Shown here: piece after piece, positions 13,777-20,497 of the stretch
Position numbering within the stretch: the first letter of the stretch is position 1
Layout: each line of letters opens with the position of its first letter
DNA from: Acidimicrobiaceae bacterium
GTDB lineage: Bacteria; Actinomycetota; Acidimicrobiia; Acidimicrobiales; RAAP-2
DNA: 33,844 bases
Reading direction: 5' to 3'
Assembly: GCA_003138855.1 (NCBI GenBank)
Contig: PLHF01000095.1
Location: 1-33,844 of the forward strand
The notes under the pieces: generated by a model
Database searches by the model: none
The model's input: the letters and a program-made list of their open reading frames with translations, nothing else
What the model was told of the DNA's origin: nothing
Made by a program: the position numbers and the translations under genes

Positions 13777-14073
13777 TCAGGCCCCTCCGAGTTTGGCGTG
13801 GACATAGTCGACTGCGTCCCGCACGGTCCGCAGCTCCTCCAGATCCTCGTCGTCGATGCGGAAGCCCACCGATCGCTCGGCAAGCTCCTCTTCGAGTCCT
13901 TCCACCAGCTCGATCAGGGCCAGCGAGTCCGCGTCGAGGTCCTCGGCAAAGGACGAGGACTCGCTGATGGCCGACGGCTCGATCTCCAAGATGTCGGCGA
14001 GCAGGTCGCGGATGAGCTCGAGGACCTGCTGGCGGTCGAGCGGACCCTTTTCCACATGGGTCTCTGCGGGCAC
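13777..14073 (-). CDS. acpP: Acyl carrier protein
   Basis: A 98-residue acyl carrier protein. The 4'-phosphopantetheine attachment Ser is S50 in the DADSLALIEL motif, at the start of helix II as expected. Helix I is QQVLELIRDLLADIL and the C-terminal helices include DEDLEELRTVRDAVDYVHAKL. The GTG at 14073 is fixed by a perfect AGGAG five bases upstream; the open frame upstream has no ACP resemblance. The sequence after helix II (ELAERSVGFRIDDEDLEE) differs somewhat from typical fatty-acid ACPs, so a specialised ACP cannot be excluded, but the position before rnc favours the housekeeping protein. The expected partner plsX lies about 15 kb upstream across an insertion. Confidence 0.93.
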   Translation of the reverse strand: MPAETHVEKGPLDRQQVLELIRDLLADILEIEPSAISESSSFAEDLDADSLALIELVEGLEEELAERSVGFRIDDEDLEELRTVRDAVDYVHAKLGGA

Positions 14074-14078
14074 GGCGT

Positions 14079-14083
14079 CTCCT
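14079..14083 (-). promoter_or_regulatory. Ribosome-binding site that fixes the acpP start
   Basis: AGGAG on the minus strand, five bases before GTG 14073. It rules out the longer in-frame starts toward 14226. Confidence 0.8.
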
Positions 14084-14153
14084 GTGTCTGGACGGTCCGG
14101 GTGCCTGTCGGGCCGGGCATGCGCCCTGGCCTGGGCCCCCTCGGTGTAGACCG

Positions 14154-14159
14154 ATGTTA
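14154..14159 (-). promoter_or_regulatory. Candidate -10 element for the acpP operon
   Basis: TAACAT (a TANNNT match) on the minus strand in the 118-base divergent gap between acpP and the ATP-grasp operon. It would give acpP a leader of about 70 bases containing the AGGAG site. No clear -35 was found. The overlapping TGTTAT on the plus strand could serve the ATP-grasp operon. Confidence 0.3.
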
Positions 14160-14191
14160 TCCGACCGGGACATTCACGGAGTCGAAACACG

Positions 14192-15799
14192 ATGGCAACC
14201 TCGCTGACCTCTGGCCGACCTAACACTTTGGGTGTGGAACTCCCCGACCTACCAGTCGCGCCCGAGAACGGCCCGGATCCGGTCCTCGAACCGTGGCCGT
14301 CCTACAACCCGGGGCAGTTCTACGACGAGATGGTGGGCCCGGACGGTGCGCCCCGTCCGGCGGCGGAGATCCTGTGGCGCCACTTCGCCGAGCTCGGGCC
14401 CGAGGCACTGGCCGAGCGCCAGCGGGCCGCCGACCGGGAGATGCGCGCCATCGGGGTGACCTTCACGGTCTACGAGGGCACCACCGGGGTGGACCGGCCG
14501 TGGCCCTTCGACATCATCCCCCGGGTGGTGCCGGCCGACGAGTGGCACGTCATCGAGTCGGGCCTGGTCCAGCGCCTCAATGCCCTCAACCTGTTCATCG
14601 ACGACGTCTACCACGACCAGCGCTCGGTCAGCTCGGGCGTGGTGCCCTCCGAGCTGGTGGCCGGCTCCCCCAACTTCCGAAGGGAGTGCGTTGGCGTCGA
14701 TCCACCCGGTGGCATCTGGGCCCACATCTGCGGGAGCGACCTGATCCGTGACGCCGACGGCACCGTCTACGTCCTCGAGGACAACCTGCGGGTCCCGTCG
14801 GGTGTCTCCTATCTGCTCGAGAACCGGATGGTGGCCAAGCACGTCTTCCCCGAGATGTTCCTGCACTACAGCATCGAGCCGGTCGACCCCTATATCGGCC
14901 GGCTGGCCGACCTGCTGGCCTCCGTCTCGCCTGCCCCGGGGGATCCGACCATCGTCGTGCTGACGCCCGGCGTCTACAACTCCGCCTACTTCGAGCACGC
15001 CTTCCTGGCCCAGCAGCTGGGCGTGGAACTGGTCGAGGGCAGCGACCTGGCGGTGCTCGACGACGACTGCGTGTACGCCCGGACCATCGACGGGCTGGAG
15101 CGGGTCGATGTCATCTACCGGCGCATCGACGACCTCTTCCTCGACCCCGAGGTCTTCCGGCCCGACTCGCTGCTCGGCGTCCCGGGGCTGATCAGAGCGT
15201 GGCGCTCCGGTCGGGTGGCCCTGGTCAACGCCCCGGGCGCCGGCATCGCCGACGACAAGAAGGTCTACTCCTACGTGCCCGACATCATCCGGTTCTTCCT
15301 CGGTGAGGAGCCCATCCTGGCCACGGTTCCCACCCTGCGGTGCAGCGACCTGGAGTCCCTCGAGTTCGTCCGCGCCAACATCGGGCGCATGGTCGTCAAG
15401 CCGGCCAACGAGTCTGGTGGCTACGGGGTGCTGGTCGGGCCCCAGGCCACCGCCGACCAACTGGCCCACGCGTCGCAACAGATCGAGGACGACCCGAAGC
15501 GGTGGGTGGCCCAGCCGGTCATCCCCCTATCTACGGCCCCGACCCTGTGCGCCGGTGAGGTTGCCCCGAGGCACGTCGACCTCCGCCCCTTCACGTTGCT
15601 CGGCCCCGAGCGCGCCTACGTGACCCGTGGCGGGCTGACGCGGGTCGCCCGCCGGAAGGGCTCGCTGGTGGTCAACTCCTCGCAGGGCGGCGGCAGCAAG
15701 GACACGTGGGTCGTCGACACCACGGGCCCTGCTCCGTCTGGGGGGCCGGCTCCTGCGGCACCGCCGTCCCGGGGTCACCCGGGAGAGCCGATCGCATGA
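14192..15799 (+). CDS. Circularly permuted type 2 ATP-grasp protein (stand-alone)
   Basis: A 535-residue protein of the circularly permuted ATP-grasp family (DUF404/DUF407-like). ATP-grasp enzymes join a carboxylate to an amine through an acyl-phosphate. Conserved landmarks are PFDIIPRVVPADEW, LNLFIDDVYHDQ, the metal-binding YVLEDNLRVPSG (E196, D197, N198), VDVIYRRIDDLFLDP, the ATP-binding MVVKPANESGGYGVLVG with Lys at 403, and the C-terminal SSQGGGSKDTW (496-506). All motifs look intact, so this should be the active ligase. It leads a four-gene plus-strand operon with two alpha-E domains and a transglutaminase-like protein. This neighbourhood is known from comparative genomics and predicted to make or modify peptides, but no product is established. 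A Pro/Ala-rich tail follows residue 507. Confidence 0.92.
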   Translation: MATSLTSGRPNTLGVELPDLPVAPENGPDPVLEPWPSYNPGQFYDEMVGPDGAPRPAAEILWRHFAELGPEALAERQRAADREMRAIGVTFTVYEGTTGVDRPWPFDIIPRVVPADEWHVIESGLVQRLNALNLFIDDVYHDQRSVSSGVVPSELVAGSPNFRRECVGVDPPGGIWAHICGSDLIRDADGTVYVLEDNLRVPSGVSYLLENRMVAKHVFPEMFLHYSIEPVDPYIGRLADLLASVSPAPGDPTIVVLTPGVYNSAYFEHAFLAQQLGVELVEGSDLAVLDDDCVYARTIDGLERVDVIYRRIDDLFLDPEVFRPDSLLGVPGLIRAWRSGRVALVNAPGAGIADDKKVYSYVPDIIRFFLGEEPILATVPTLRCSDLESLEFVRANIGRMVVKPANESGGYGVLVGPQATADQLAHASQQIEDDPKRWVAQPVIPLSTAPTLCAGEVAPRHVDLRPFTLLGPERAYVTRGGLTRVARRKGSLVVNSSQGGGSKDTWVVDTTGPAPSGGPAPAAPPSRGHPGEPIA

Positions 15800-15841
15800 A
15801 CGACCAGAGGGGTGCGGCACGGCGGGCGAGCTCCCTCGACC

Positions 15842-15865
15842 CCGAACCCGAACCCGAACACGAAC
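15842..15865 (+). repeat. CCGAAC hexamer tandem repeat upstream of the alpha-E gene
   Basis: Three perfect CCGAAC copies (15842-15859) and one degenerate copy (ACGAAC) lie directly before the AAGGAG ribosome-binding site of the alpha-E gene. If translation began at the overlapping ATG 15796, the repeat would encode an alternating Pro-Glu stretch (PEPEPEHEP). Confidence 0.7.
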
Positions 15866-15867
15866 CG

Positions 15868-15873
15868 AAGGAG
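15868..15873 (+). promoter_or_regulatory. Ribosome-binding site favouring the inner alpha-E start
   Basis: AAGGAG six bases before ATG 15880. It favours that start over ATG 15796, which overlaps the stop of the ATP-grasp gene (ATGA). Confidence 0.7.
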
Positions 15874-15879
15874 CGAACC

Positions 15880-16863
15880 ATGCTGCTGGCACGTATGGCC
15901 GAGGCCGTCTACTGGGCCGGGCGCCACCTCGAACGCGCCGAGGGCACCGCCCGTATTGTCCAGGTCCACACCGACACCCACGTCGACCTTCCGGTCGGCG
16001 AGGACGTCGGGTGGGAGCCGTTGCTGGCCATCGTGGGGGTTCACAGCGAGTTCGCCGAGCGGTACTCGGCCGCCGCCGAGGCAGGCGACACGGCTGCCGC
16101 AGAGGAGGACGTGGTCGAGTTCCTCCTCCACGGTGACGGCAACGCGTCCTCCATCCTGTCCGCCGTCGCCGCGGGACGGGAGAACCTCCGCACCGCCCGC
16201 CCGGTGGTGCCCCGCGAGGCGTGGGAGGCCAGCAACAACCTGTGGTTGGCCTGCTCGGACCACATGGACGAGGTCAAGTCCAGACAGGGACGGGTCCAGT
16301 GGCTCCGCCGTGTGATCGCCGGATGCCAGCGGATCAACGGGATCCTGCTCGGCACGATGAGCCGCGACGAGGCCATGAGCTTCCTTTCCATCGGACAGAA
16401 CCTCGAGCGCGCCGACCTGACCACCCGGGTGCTCGACGTCCGCTCGGAGAGCCTGCACTCCCAGCATGGCGACGATCCCTACGACGTGGTCCACTGGATG
16501 GCCGTGCTCCGCTCGCTCGCCGCCTATCAGCCCTTCCGGCGCGCCATGCCCGCCCGGCCCCAGGGCGGAGCCACCCTGCGCTTCCTCCTCCAGGACGATC
16601 GGTTCCCCCGGGCGGTCAGCGCCTGCCTGACCGAGACCCGCTCCCACTTGAAGCAGCTGGCCCGTTCGGAGGCCGCCCTGGAAGCGTGCGCGACGGCCTC
16701 GATGGTGGTGGCATCGGCCGCCGTGCCGCGGCTCGCCCTGGACGGCCTGGAGGAGTTCCTCGACGAGGTCCAGGTGGCGCTGGACGCAATCCACCTCCGG
16801 ATCGACGAGACGTACTTCCGACCATCGTTCGTCGACTGGCACGCCCAGTCCGAGGCATCGTGA
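15880..16863 (+). CDS. Alpha-E domain protein (DUF403)
   Basis: A 327-residue, all-helical alpha-E protein, recognisable from the N-terminus MLLARMAEAVYWAGRHLERAEGTA without its last residues, the central NNLWLACSDHMDE, GTMSRDEAMSFLSIGQNLERADLTTR, and the C-terminal helices around LDAIHLRIDETYF. Alpha-E proteins almost always accompany circularly permuted ATP-grasp proteins; their biochemical role is unknown, with a scaffold or substrate-holding function suggested. The chosen ATG has a strong AAGGAG at six bases and matches the family N-terminus. An upstream ATG (15796) overlaps the previous stop and would add 28 low-complexity residues. The gene ends in a GTGA overlap with the downstream fusion gene. 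Confidence 0.9.
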   Translation: MLLARMAEAVYWAGRHLERAEGTARIVQVHTDTHVDLPVGEDVGWEPLLAIVGVHSEFAERYSAAAEAGDTAAAEEDVVEFLLHGDGNASSILSAVAAGRENLRTARPVVPREAWEASNNLWLACSDHMDEVKSRQGRVQWLRRVIAGCQRINGILLGTMSRDEAMSFLSIGQNLERADLTTRVLDVRSESLHSQHGDDPYDVVHWMAVLRSLAAYQPFRRAMPARPQGGATLRFLLQDDRFPRAVSACLTETRSHLKQLARSEAALEACATASMVVASAAVPRLALDGLEEFLDEVQVALDAIHLRIDETYFRPSFVDWHAQSEAS

Positions 16864-19613
16864 CCACGGCCACCTCCGCCGGGCCCCACGCAGGGGGTGA
16901 GGGCGAAACCGCCGACGGGGCGGAGATGCCCGAGTACTCGGCGATCCCGGGGCGGCTCGACGAGTCCCTCGGCCCGGACGGCAGGGTCCGCACCCGATGG
17001 AAACAGGTGGCGGCGGAGATGGCCGGGCTGGGGCCCGGCGGTCTCCTCGCCCGTCGGGCCGAGCTGGCGCGGCTGCTCCGGAACGATGGCGCCACCTACA
17101 ACGTCACGCGGGACGGACGGAGCAGTCGGAGACCGTGGTCGCTCGATCCGTGCCCCCTGGTGCTCGACGACACCGAGTGGTCGGCTCTCGAGCGCGCCGT
17201 AGCCCAGCGGGTGGCCCTCCTCGACCTGGTTCTCGCCGACCTCTACGGCCGGCGCCGCCTGGTGGCCGAGGGCCTCGTCCCTGCCGAGCTCGTCCTCGGA
17301 AGCCCCTCATTCCTCCGGGCCTGCGCAGACACGGCCACCCCCGACGCCCGCCACCTGTTCCTCACCGCTGTCGACGTCGTGCGTGACCGTCAGGGTGCCT
17401 TCCGATCCATCGGTGATTGGGCCCAGGCTCCCTCAGGCCTCGGTTACGCCCTGGTCAACCGCAAGGCCCTCTCGAGGGTGCTTCCCAGTCTCCACCGCGC
17501 CTCGGGCGTCGAGCGCCTGGCCGGCTTCTTCCGCTCCATACGGGCCGGGGTGGCCAGAGTCGCTCCCGAGGGGGTCGACGATCCCCGGGTGGTGATCCTG
17601 ACACCGGGTCCACTGAGCGAGACCTACTTCGAGCACGCCTACCTGGCTTCCTACCTCGGATACGCCCTGGTCGAGGGCCGGGACCTGGTGGTCAACAACA
17701 ACCGGGTATGGCTGCGCTCGCTTGCCGGCCTCGATCCGGTGGACGTCGTGATCCGGAGGGTGGACGACCAGTGGTGCGATCCCGTCGAGCTTCGGGCCGA
17801 CTCGCTGCTCGGGGTGCCCGGGCTCCTGGAAGCGGCCCGGCGCGGGCGGGTCGCCGTGGTCAACCCCATCGGCAGCGCGATCATCGAGCACCCGGCCCTG
17901 ACCGGCCTGCTGGGAAGGGTGGCCCCCATCATGCTCGGCGAGGAGTTGGCACTGCGCGGGCCCGAGACCTGGTGGTGTGGTCATCCCCGCGGCCTCAGCC
18001 ACGTCCTAGCCTCCCTCGAGGAGCTCGTCGTCTTTCCGGTGGGGGCCTCGACCGGGCTGTGGCCGGTGGTGGGATCCAACTTGTCCGCCGACGCCCTCGC
18101 AGGCCTGCGCGACCGGATACGCAGTCGGCCCGCGGACTGGGTGGGCCAGGAGGTCGTCGAGCCGTCCACCGTCCCGACGGTGAGCGACAACGGCACCCTC
18201 GAGCCGAGGCCGGCGGTGATCCGTACCTTCAGCGTCGCCGGCGATGCCGCCGGCGACGGCGCGTCCCATGGGTTCACGGTGTTGCCCGGCGGCCTGACCC
18301 GGGTCGGGGTGGCCACCGATGCAGGGATCATCTCGAGCCGGGGCGAGGGGACCAGCAAGGACACCTGGGTGGCGTCGGCCGAACCGGCCCTTCAGCAGAG
18401 CACCTGGCTCCCGTCGGCGCGCGCGCCCAAGCGGCCCGCGGTCATCCCCGAGCTGCCCACCCCCCTGCCCGGCCGCGTCGCCGCCCAACTGTTCATGCTG
18501 GGCCGCAGCGCGGAGCATGCAGAGTTGGTCATCCGGTTGATACGCACGGTCCTGACCCGCCTCGACCAGCCGCTCGGAATGGGGGTGGACGGTGGCGCCG
18601 AGTCCCTGCAGGTCCTGCTCTCGGCCCTCCGCACCGTCTCGGGCTTCGATGCGGTTTCCGAGCCCGATGATCCGGGGTTCCGGCCCGGGGGGCCCGCGCT
18701 CCCGACGCCTCCGGTGCAATCCGCCGGCCGTGGCGACGGCACCCGGGCGGCAGACCACGAGCCCGAGGTCCCGACCGACCGGCGGGCGCTGGCGCTACTC
18801 CTCGATGCCGGTGTCGACGGCAGCCTGGTGTCGTCCCTCGGGCTCGTGGTCGACGCGGCCTACTCGGTACGGGAGCAGCTCTCGAGCGACACCTGGCAGT
18901 TGATCGGCGACGTCGAGGAGGAGTTGGCGCGGCTGCGCCACCGGCCGCCGACCCAACTGGTCGGCGTGCAGTCGAGCCTGCAGCGCCTCCTCCAGGCGCT
19001 GCTCGCCCTGTCCGGCCTCTCGGCCGAGAACATGGAGCGGGACTCGGCGTGGCTCTTCCTCGACGGCGGCAGGCGGCTGGATCGGGCCCAGTCCCTGGTC
19101 AGGCTGGTCCGTGCGGTGCTGGTCCGCAAGCGGGCCGGCGTGGTCGAGGACCTCCTCCTCGAATCGCTCCTGAAGACGTCGGAGAGCCTGATCATCTTCC
19201 GCCGCAGATCGGGGCCGATCATGCATGTGGCCGGCGCTGTCGACCTCCTCGTCTATGACGCGGCCAATCCCCGCAGCGTGATCTTCCAGCTCGACCGCTT
19301 GGTCGACCACCTGGAGGACATGCCCGAGCAGTCGTCTGCCCAGCGCCTAGGGAACGAGGAACGCCTGGTGTTGGAGACGGCCACCATGCTGCGCCTGACC
19401 GACGCAGGACGGCTGGCCGCCGTCGACCAGGACACCGGGCTGCGGATGGAGTTGGATGCAGTCTTCGGGCGCGTCGACGGGCTACTGGGCGAGCTGTTGG
19501 ACTCGCTGCGGCACACCTACTTCGCCCACGAGAGGCTCTCCGTCCTGGCCGGGCGCAACACCGAGGATGGCGGCAGCGGCGAGGCCGGCGGCGGCACCGG
19601 ACACAGATCATGA
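16860..19613 (+). CDS. Circularly permuted ATP-grasp domain fused to an alpha-E domain
   Basis: A 917-residue fusion. Residues about 20-520 form a second circularly permuted ATP-grasp region (LRNDGATYNV, LLDLVLADLYG, GDWAQAPSGLGYALVNR, VIRRVDDQWCDPVEL, GLTRVG, GTSKDTWV). Residues about 533-905 form a second alpha-E domain (LFMLGRSAEHAELVIRL; LLLESLLKTSESLIIFRRR; SVIFQLDRLVDHLEDM). Compared with the stand-alone copy, the ATP-binding Lys segment VVKPANESGG becomes VVFPVGASTG, with Phe at residue 392 in the Lys position, and EDN becomes GDW (185-187). The ATP-grasp half may therefore be catalytically weak or regulatory. The start is GTG 16860, which overlaps the previous stop. The frame is open further upstream only as an out-of-frame shadow of the alpha-E gene. 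Confidence 0.9.
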   Translation: MTTATSAGPHAGGEGETADGAEMPEYSAIPGRLDESLGPDGRVRTRWKQVAAEMAGLGPGGLLARRAELARLLRNDGATYNVTRDGRSSRRPWSLDPCPLVLDDTEWSALERAVAQRVALLDLVLADLYGRRRLVAEGLVPAELVLGSPSFLRACADTATPDARHLFLTAVDVVRDRQGAFRSIGDWAQAPSGLGYALVNRKALSRVLPSLHRASGVERLAGFFRSIRAGVARVAPEGVDDPRVVILTPGPLSETYFEHAYLASYLGYALVEGRDLVVNNNRVWLRSLAGLDPVDVVIRRVDDQWCDPVELRADSLLGVPGLLEAARRGRVAVVNPIGSAIIEHPALTGLLGRVAPIMLGEELALRGPETWWCGHPRGLSHVLASLEELVVFPVGASTGLWPVVGSNLSADALAGLRDRIRSRPADWVGQEVVEPSTVPTVSDNGTLEPRPAVIRTFSVAGDAAGDGASHGFTVLPGGLTRVGVATDAGIISSRGEGTSKDTWVASAEPALQQSTWLPSARAPKRPAVIPELPTPLPGRVAAQLFMLGRSAEHAELVIRLIRTVLTRLDQPLGMGVDGGAESLQVLLSALRTVSGFDAVSEPDDPGFRPGGPALPTPPVQSAGRGDGTRAADHEPEVPTDRRALALLLDAGVDGSLVSSLGLVVDAAYSVREQLSSDTWQLIGDVEEELARLRHRPPTQLVGVQSSLQRLLQALLALSGLSAENMERDSAWLFLDGGRRLDRAQSLVRLVRAVLVRKRAGVVEDLLLESLLKTSESLIIFRRRSGPIMHVAGAVDLLVYDAANPRSVIFQLDRLVDHLEDMPEQSSAQRLGNEERLVLETATMLRLTDAGRLAAVDQDTGLRMELDAVFGRVDGLLGELLDSLRHTYFAHERLSVLAGRNTEDGGSGEAGGGTGHRS

Positions 19614-20497
19614 ACTTCCGGATCGTCCACCGGACCGCCTACAAGTACGACACGCCGGTCACCCGGTGCCGGAACGAGGCCCACCTCCGCCCGCGCGAGA
19701 CCCAACGCCAGCACTGTGTGTCCAGCGAGCTGGTGGTCGATCCCTCCCCGACCAGCTGGTCCGAGCGCACCGACTTCTTCGGCAATCCGGTCGTCTCGTT
19801 TGCGGTCGACGGGCCGTTCAGGGAGTTGACGGTGACTTCGACCAGCTCGGTGTCGGTGGCCGCTCGCCGGTCGCTGCCGACGGACGGGCCGACCTGGGAC
19901 GGGGCACGCGACCAGCTGGCAAACGATCTGACGCCGGAGCTGCTCGCCGCACGCGAGTTCTGCTTCGACTCGCCGCTCGTCACCACGTCGTCGGCCATCC
20001 GAGCCTACGCGGAACCTTCGTTTCCCGGTGGGAGGCCATTGATCCACGCGGTCGCCGACCTCACCGAGCGGATCTTCCAGGACTTCGTCTACGACCCTGG
20101 CTTCACCACGGTGACCACCCCCGTCGAGGAGGTCCTTGGTTATCGCCGGGGCGTGTGCCAGGACTTCGCCCACCTGGCCGTCGGATGCCTCCGATCGCTG
20201 GGGCTGGCGGCGCGCTACGTCAGCGGCTACCTCGAGACATCACCGCCGCCCGGGCAAGAGCGCCTGATCGGGGCCGATGCCTCCCACGCCTGGCCGTCGG
20301 TCTTCGTGCCGAGGTGGGGCTGGCTGGATGTCGATCCCACCAACAACAAGATCGTGGGGCCGACCTACGTCACCACGGCCTGGGGGCGCGACTACTCCGA
20401 TGTCTCCCCGCTGAAGGGGATCGTGTTCGGTGGGGGGGGCTCCCACACCCTCGACGTCGCCGTGGACGTGACCCGGTCAGCTCCGCTCGAGGCGTAG
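19610..20497 (+). CDS. Transglutaminase-like family protein
   Basis: A 295-residue protein with the bacterial transglutaminase N-terminal beta domain (MNFRIVHRTAYKYDTPV; SELVVDPSPTSWSERTDFFGN) and a papain-like core. The catalytic triad is visible: C183 in GVCQDFAH, H226 in ADASHAW and D242 in LDVDPTNN. Such proteins can act as transglutaminases or, more often in bacteria, as cysteine peptidases or amidases. No signal peptide is present, so it probably acts in the cytoplasm. The ATG overlaps the fusion gene stop (ATGA), making it the last gene of the operon. The likely division of labour is peptide-bond formation by the ATP-grasp protein and cleavage or transfer by this enzyme. The next gene is convergent, 37 bases away. 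Confidence 0.92.
   Translation: MNFRIVHRTAYKYDTPVTRCRNEAHLRPRETQRQHCVSSELVVDPSPTSWSERTDFFGNPVVSFAVDGPFRELTVTSTSSVSVAARRSLPTDGPTWDGARDQLANDLTPELLAAREFCFDSPLVTTSSAIRAYAEPSFPGGRPLIHAVADLTERIFQDFVYDPGFTTVTTPVEEVLGYRRGVCQDFAHLAVGCLRSLGLAARYVSGYLETSPPPGQERLIGADASHAWPSVFVPRWGWLDVDPTNNKIVGPTYVTTAWGRDYSDVSPLKGIVFGGGGSHTLDVAVDVTRSAPLEA

Follow-up and report, generated by a model that had tools for sequence, protein, structure and literature searches.

A fused ATP-grasp/Alpha-E protein lacking catalytic-type ATP-grasp residues in a four-gene transglutaminase operon of an Acidimicrobiaceae bacterium

The window analysed here, a 33,844-nucleotide stretch of contig PLHF01000095.1, belongs to the genome of an Acidimicrobiaceae bacterium (4.0 Mb, 155 contigs, 93.75% complete). 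At positions 14192-20497 of its plus strand it carries four packed genes, which encode a circularly permuted ATP-grasp protein (CP_ATPgrasp), an Alpha-E protein, a CP_ATPgrasp and Alpha-E fusion, and a transglutaminase-like enzyme with a Cys-His-Asp triad. All four were assigned by Pfam profile matches far above cut-off, which upholds the gene calls and domain assignments of an initial annotation made from the sequence alone. What that annotation had missed is that the two ATP-grasp domains are not equivalent: the fused domain lacks five catalytic-type residues throughout the aligned members of its clade. The features of the operon are as follows.

14192-15799, plus strand: gene 1, stand-alone circularly permuted ATP-grasp, 535 amino acids (aa) (Pfam PF14403 and PF04174; PDB 3n6x; residue table)
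15796-16863, plus strand: gene 2, stand-alone Alpha-E, 355 aa from the outer ATG at 15796 or 327 aa from the inner ATG at 15880 (PF04168; alignment; AlphaFold)
15868-15873, plus strand: AAGGAG, resembling a ribosome-binding site, ahead of the inner start of gene 2 (sequence)
16860-19613, plus strand: gene 3, CP_ATPgrasp and Alpha-E fusion, 917 aa, GTG start (Pfam; AlphaFold)
17154-18305, plus strand: pseudo-ATP-grasp domain of gene 3 (residue comparison)
18465-19523, plus strand: diverged Alpha-E domain of gene 3, without the R-E-N-x-R block (gene 2 residues 100-104) (alignment)
19610-20497, plus strand: gene 4, transglutaminase-like cysteine enzyme, 295 aa (PF08379 and PF01841; conserved triad)

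The fused ATP-grasp domain and its stand-alone counterpart

Gene 1 matches CP_ATPgrasp_2 (PF14403, E = 3.7e-157), aligns with PDB entry 3n6x over residues 44-508 (E = 1.6e-154), and retains the catalytic-type residues E196, N198, D354-D355-K356, K403, the S408-G412 glycine loop, H461, D463 and R465. Profile and residues together place it among the catalytic ligases of this family. A Yersinia bercovieri homologue of the stand-alone protein released phosphate from ATP (PMC6376114; here and below, published work is cited from excerpts of the articles). The intact motifs, the homology to 3n6x and the ATP turnover of the homologue lend support to the earlier proposal that the stand-alone ATP-grasp is an amide ligase.

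Gene 3 also matches CP_ATPgrasp_2 (E = 2.8e-133) and Alpha-E (E = 6.1e-57) in Pfam. Its AlphaFold model (predicted local distance difference test, pLDDT, 83.3; predicted template modelling score, pTM, 0.84) compares with 3n6x at a template modelling score of 0.88 by target, with weaker matches to glutathione, homoglutathione, glutathionylspermidine and trypanothione synthetases and to YgiC/YjfC. In place of the E-D-N (196-198) and D-D-K (354-356) motifs of stand-alone proteins it has G-D-W and E-H-P; K403 is replaced by F, the glycine loop is altered and D463 is V. With G, W, P, T and V at E196, N198, K356, G409 and D463, gene 3 falls outside the catalytic group. The E-x-N residues of ATP-grasps are metal ligands.

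The same loss extends across the fused family. We aligned 56 stand-alone and 88 fused proteins, leaving out L119, L008 (from the same genome as G012/L121) and the fragments L053 and L049. Each of the five residues is present in 56 of 56 stand-alone proteins and in 0 of 88 fused ones. Among other positions, the fused set keeps D354 in 1, D355 in 2, G412 in 2, H461 in 6, G410 in 47, D183 in 58, K403 in 77 and R465 in all 88. When at most one exception is allowed, 103 columns are invariant in the stand-alone set; with 95% or more of the fused rows as the threshold, 42 of these count as retained, 22 as lost and 39 as intermediate. Half of the 22 lost columns belong to the E-x-N and D-D-K motifs, the glycine-rich loop, the N495-Q498 stretch or D463 (E196, N198, D354-K356, G409, G412, D463, N495, S497 and Q498), and the remainder lie elsewhere (F91, P105, R111, A131, F135, S206, A265, Y309, F322, I366 and P466). 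Retained positions include PSG (202-204), Y266, E268, H269, R310, R311, K503, D504 and W506.

Gene 3 is nonetheless maintained. By simple counting against four operons of the same genus (synonymous divergence, dS, 0.58-1.69), the ratio of nonsynonymous to synonymous divergence (dN/dS) comes to 0.16-0.23 in gene 1, 0.19-0.23 in gene 2, 0.22-0.28 in gene 3 and 0.18-0.28 in gene 4, and gene 3 is under purifying selection within the genus. The fused proteins moreover share residues of their own (N198R in 84, R200Q in 78, D354E in 85 and S264E in 87 of 88), and because R198 and Q200 are conserved in this way, the changes amount to more than drift. Such conservation, together with the selection on gene 3 and the retention of K403, would also be expected if the fused domain had been re-tooled around Arg198 and Gln200, at former metal-ligand positions, for a different reaction, so that the operon held two enzymes in series. 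The complete absence of the five residues speaks against this, as does the window's own clade, in which the window has F and five kin have L, V, L, L and H in place of K403, and R198 has given way to W in the window, K in L118 and H in L122 but is kept in L117, L120 and L121. We regard re-tooling as unlikely.

In four members of family f7 (L126, L144, L150 and L151) the fused ATP-grasp is even more reduced, with gaps in the glycine-loop columns and K403 replaced.

Occurrence beside a live twin and evolutionary history

Loci were collected by similarity to gene 3, and the best 80 among the matches listed were compared. A stand-alone ATP-grasp lies at the locus itself in 40 of these 80 fused loci (in L053 as a fragment at the edge); among the genomes of the remaining 40, 39 show a separate match in an open frame shorter than 620 aa, as judged by frame length and not by residues. 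A search of the phylum gave a similar picture for Alpha-E: at least one further Alpha-E match is present in 16 of 16 genomes with a degenerate fusion, the degenerate residues having been read in 14 control-set genomes, in the window's genome and in G066. The converse is not true, as many genomes carry the stand-alone genes without the fusion.

Because the 80 loci had been gathered by similarity to gene 3, a control set of 40 further regions was hand-chosen from Alpha-E sites in the phylum and relatives searches. Of its 17 open reading frames (ORFs) with both domains, 15 retain one or none of the five residues and two retain the full set; among its stand-alone rows, 25 of 26 keep all five, the exception being a 303-aa ORF of L175 beside an intact row. 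The two intact fusions (L152, 3306-5513, minus strand; L154, 3070-5280, minus strand) represent a distant fusion type, with Alpha-E E-values of 1.4e-18 and 2.4e-16, and come from genomes with a single Alpha-E match each (G238 and G227). Since they come from such genomes, inactivation is tied to the presence of a live twin, and fusion by itself does not inactivate. Given the lost residues, the maintained selection and the stand-alone copy that nearly always accompanies it, gene 3 is best read as a conserved pseudo-ATP-grasp.

An ATP-grasp tree of 72 rows (catalytic columns removed, other loci randomly sampled, quick search) places 34 fused rows on one side of a single branch with a Shimodaira-Hasegawa-like approximate likelihood-ratio test (SH-aLRT) support of 94, and 37 stand-alone rows plus a protein joined to a GCS2 domain on the other; among the fused rows, L126 stands on a very long branch. 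Gene 1 falls in a 21-row set (support 100) of 14 Pseudomonadota and seven members of its own taxonomic order, whose three-gene proteins lie outside this set. Gene 3 groups with members of its genus, family and order, adjoining a betaproteobacterial row. These two positions suggest that the operon was acquired from outside. A horizontally acquired operon might also be a decaying one without function, and the placement of gene 1 fits this, as do the presence of Alpha-E in 6 of 13 same-genus genomes and a relative without the fusion (G007). All four frames are open, however, the dN/dS values are low and the gene order is kept, which makes decay very improbable.

The four-gene order was found again in four operons of the same genus (L117, L118, L120 and L121) and one of the same family (L122); the arrangement is therefore not due to chance. 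Within the window's taxonomic order there are three-gene sets (ATP-grasp, Alpha-E and transglutaminase), four-gene sets, and the G066 locus, which also has DUF2126. Many of the 80 loci share a common layout of stand-alone ATP-grasp and Alpha-E, a large transglutaminase protein, the fusion, and a short transglutaminase. In 74 of 80 loci a short transglutaminase comes after the fusion when a 700-aa filter is applied; L047, L053 and L073 are excluded by a longer transglutaminase-bearing ORF, L023 and L046 lie at locus ends, and L037 is a true miss. A transglutaminase-bearing ORF of at least 1000 aa lies upstream of the fusion in 60 of 80 loci, one confirmed as DUF2126 and the others assigned by size and transglutaminase match.

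DUF2126 was not found in a search of the window's genome at its 93.75% completeness, which sets the operon apart from the DUF2126 type, nor in 37 of 38 Alpha-E-bearing relatives. Among 18 other fusion-bearing genomes it is present in 15 and was not found in G116, G122 and G138; an assembly gap is less likely in G116 since its locus L049 lies on a chromosome-level record. These three genomes indicate that the DUF2126-free state is wider than the window's genus. A survey of recurrent neighbours across 98 loci recognised no shared extra operon member, its clusters being mostly close relatives, response-regulator-like proteins and antisense frames.

A predicted make-and-break amide system

With even confidence for and against, we propose that the operon encodes a system that makes and breaks an amide, in which gene 1 would be the sole active ligase, gene 4 would break or transfer the amide, and gene 3 would be a non-catalytic scaffold or regulator. 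To judge from its fold, its intact motifs and the ATP turnover of its homologue, gene 1 would act in the manner of glutathione-synthetase/YgiC-type enzymes, using ATP to activate a carboxylate that is then joined to an amine. No other gene of the operon is a plausible ligase, because DUF2126, the further ligase-type protein of the wider system, was not found in the genome. Gene 4 matches Bact_transglu_N (PF08379, E = 9.8e-26) and Transglut_core (PF01841, E = 1.8e-18), and its triad of C183, H226 and D242 is conserved in 94, 93 and 94 of 94 aligned rows, as in transglutaminase-like enzymes; it may hydrolyse or transfer the amide through an acyl-enzyme. Linkage across loci suggests that gene 2 serves gene 1 as its own helical partner. 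Gene 3 would be an old duplicate of genes 1 and 2 that became fused and whose ATP-grasp half, judging by the 88 aligned members, has lost the residues typical of Mg-ATP binding and catalysis. A scaffold or regulator of gene 1, gene 4 or both is its most likely role, because the catalytic-type residues are lost and the gene is under selection. Put more broadly, the fused protein may be an ancient, phylum-spanning dead paralogue kept beside a live twin as a scaffold or allosteric subunit, with gene 1, 2 or 4 as its partner here and the operon in the window as a minimal DUF2126-free version; we give this an equal chance of proving right or wrong.

Several observations weigh against this interpretation. 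Mutations in Cp1B, a ligase of the glutathione-synthetase/YgiC-type fold, speak for it, since alanine at R139, D141, E163 or N165 abolished or much reduced activity (PMC12568646), but the apparent equivalence of its E163-x-N165 to E196-x-N198 rests on motif order and not on superposition, and the R of its R-x-D pair is G181 here. Most fused proteins keep K403 and D183, so that they might bind nucleotide without catalysing a reaction, or might have an altered chemistry, and the conserved R198 and Q200 could signal a new activity. The genome G107 shows a fused copy only, and tree support for the stand-alone group itself is only 26. G007, of the same genus and 98% complete, has one Alpha-E match and no fusion at its locus, so that the fusion is dispensable there. 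Co-expression pull-downs with the Y. bercovieri Anbu operon, which has four genes and no fusion, gave no specific interactions (PMC6376114). Loss of the R-E-N-x-R block of Alpha-E had been considered as a companion of ligase loss; in the two intact fusions, as judged by eye, Alpha-E likewise deviates from this block, which weakens that idea and indicates that the block is not strictly coupled to ligase activity.

The gene set is of a known kind, and the conserved pseudo-ATP-grasp and the DUF2126-free layout are the new part. According to PMC5666114 and PMC6376114, amidoligase/Alpha-E/transglutaminase operons had already been published by Iyer et al. 2009. In open-licence PMC literature we found, in the excerpts covered, nothing stating that the fused ATP-grasp lacks activity; Iyer et al. 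2009 lay outside that search, and priority is not claimed. Anbu-type operons (ATP-grasp, Alpha-E, transglutaminase and Anbu) resemble the window in combining circularly permuted ATP-grasp, Alpha-E and transglutaminase-like genes, whereas the window has no Anbu, which places it outside that type, and has the additional fused pseudo-ATP-grasp/Alpha-E gene. The five-gene layout with transglutaminase and DUF2126 has the fused protein as well, with a short transglutaminase behind it, but DUF2126 was not found in the window's genome.

Glutathione and glutathionylspermidine synthetases and YgiC-YjfC have the same ATP-grasp fold, at about 10-14% identity in the matches, and Alpha-E is not known from these systems. 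The bifunctional glutathionylspermidine synthetase/amidase combines a ligase with a cysteine amidase and can be likened to gene 1 plus gene 4, with the difference that the cysteine enzyme of the window is transglutaminase-like. By this analogy, candidate substrates would be amines and gamma-glutamyl or peptidyl acids. The window's genome also holds a third CP_ATPgrasp (G000:C102:27019-28131; L005 1405-3942, minus strand), joined to a GCS2 domain of the glutamate-cysteine-ligase type. Like gene 1, this protein (row L135 of the residue table) retains all five catalytic-type residues; unlike the operon, it has the attached GCS2 domain, no Alpha-E match and a location on another contig. It may hint at the chemistry that the family carries out.

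The purpose of such a system might lie in nitrogen scavenging or storage, with a glutamyl- or peptidyl-amine conjugate made and broken under ammonium scarcity. This idea is compatible with the make-and-break reading, to which it adds a purpose, and we consider it possible, though rather less than evenly so. In Pseudomonas putida on nitrate versus ammonium, the type 2 circularly permuted ATP-grasp PP_2688 rose by log2 3.99 and the proteasome-type PP_2685 by log2 4.44 (PMC8050072); a cluster of DUF404/407, DUF403 and transglutaminase-like genes, described as a common sigma54/NtrC target, fell in an ntrC mutant of Burkholderia cenocepacia (PMC5491218); and in marine metagenomes the domains are associated with those of urea metabolism (PMC3597751). 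This basis comprises two proteobacteria and one correlation, however, and the window neighbours identified so far, which cover part of its ORFs, are housekeeping genes.

A further alternative is peptide tagging, in which the ligase would attach amino acids or a tag to proteins or peptides, the transglutaminase would remove or transfer it, and a proteasome-type peptidase, Anbu elsewhere and here an unlinked 20S, would consume the product. Anbu is frequent in such operons (PMC5666114, PMC6376114), and the window's genome does encode a 20S pair. The initial annotation had seen no Anbu in the window, and a search of the genome for the Anbu/proteasome fold (PF00227) bears this out, returning only the 20S beta/alpha pair on contig C5, unlinked to the operon. 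Anbu proteins, moreover, lacked peptidase activity on the substrates tested (PMC6376114). We consider peptide tagging improbable.

These operons occur in many phyla, are nitrogen-responsive in two proteobacteria, and have a role that the literature excerpts call unconfirmed. A conserved non-catalytic copy offers a concrete, more testable handle on how such systems work. Because of the conserved dead twin, enzyme assays of the fused protein may fail; they are better aimed at the stand-alone ATP-grasp, with its fused partner present. The DUF2126-free four-gene version provides a simple set for reconstituting the reaction.

Alpha-E proteins, gene starts and neighbouring genes

Gene 2 matches Alpha-E (PF04168) with E = 5.3e-74, and genes 2 and 3 both belong to this family. 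Among the residues invariant in 56 stand-alone Alpha-E proteins are W12, R15, E18, R19, R104, R107, G172, E176 and R177, and R100, E101 and N102 are almost invariant. R100 is found in 54 of 58 stand-alone versus 7 of 90 fused Alpha-E rows (L008 and L119 included). The first E-R motif is E-H in gene 3 of the window, and R19 is present in 83 of 90 fused rows. AlphaFold models gene 2 with confidence as an all-helical protein (pLDDT 88.8; pTM 0.89). Neither its sequence, which had no credible match in the PDB, nor its model, for which Foldseek gave no PDB match at E ≤ 0.001 (best 0.55), pointed to a known structure, and a new fold is not claimed. In two genomes of the same family (G039 and G057), Alpha-E and transglutaminase share one reading frame (L168, 4876-6936, plus strand; L169, 2928-5054, minus strand), which hints at contact between the two proteins.

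The genes overlap by ATGA at 15796-15799, GTGA at 16860-16863 and ATGA at 19610-19613. The initial annotation had described the last three junctions as four-base overlaps; all are indeed of four bases if the outer start of gene 2 is used, but the operon has three junctions in total. Its inner start of gene 2 with a ribosome-binding site is confirmed as ATG 15880 behind the AAGGAG. This inner ATG is present in 6 of 6 related loci compared. The window and three of these loci (L117, L118 and L121) also have an in-frame ATG at most 150 bases 5' of it, at distances that vary among the three. By this comparison the inner ATG appears to be the start common to related loci, with the outer ATG as an alternative. 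No precursor peptide was noticed between genes 1 and 2 or directly upstream, where no systematic search was made, and an NCBIfam search returned no family for any of the four proteins.

In G007, the locus without the fusion gene lies at L119 7841-10858 on the plus strand, and by eye its ATP-grasp frame is apparently shifted near the end; an apparent fusion of genes 1 and 2 there was set aside as a frameshift.

The operon is flanked on the minus strand by an acyl-carrier-protein-like frame, RNase III, formamidopyrimidine-DNA glycosylase, SMC and two signal recognition particle (SRP) GTPase proteins (FtsY- and Ffh-like). The acyl-carrier-protein-like frame, with a D-S-L motif recognised by eye, occupies 13777-14226 on the minus strand, just upstream of gene 1. 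Because it overlaps a long N-terminal extension of RNase III, the true start of RNase III is probably further in.

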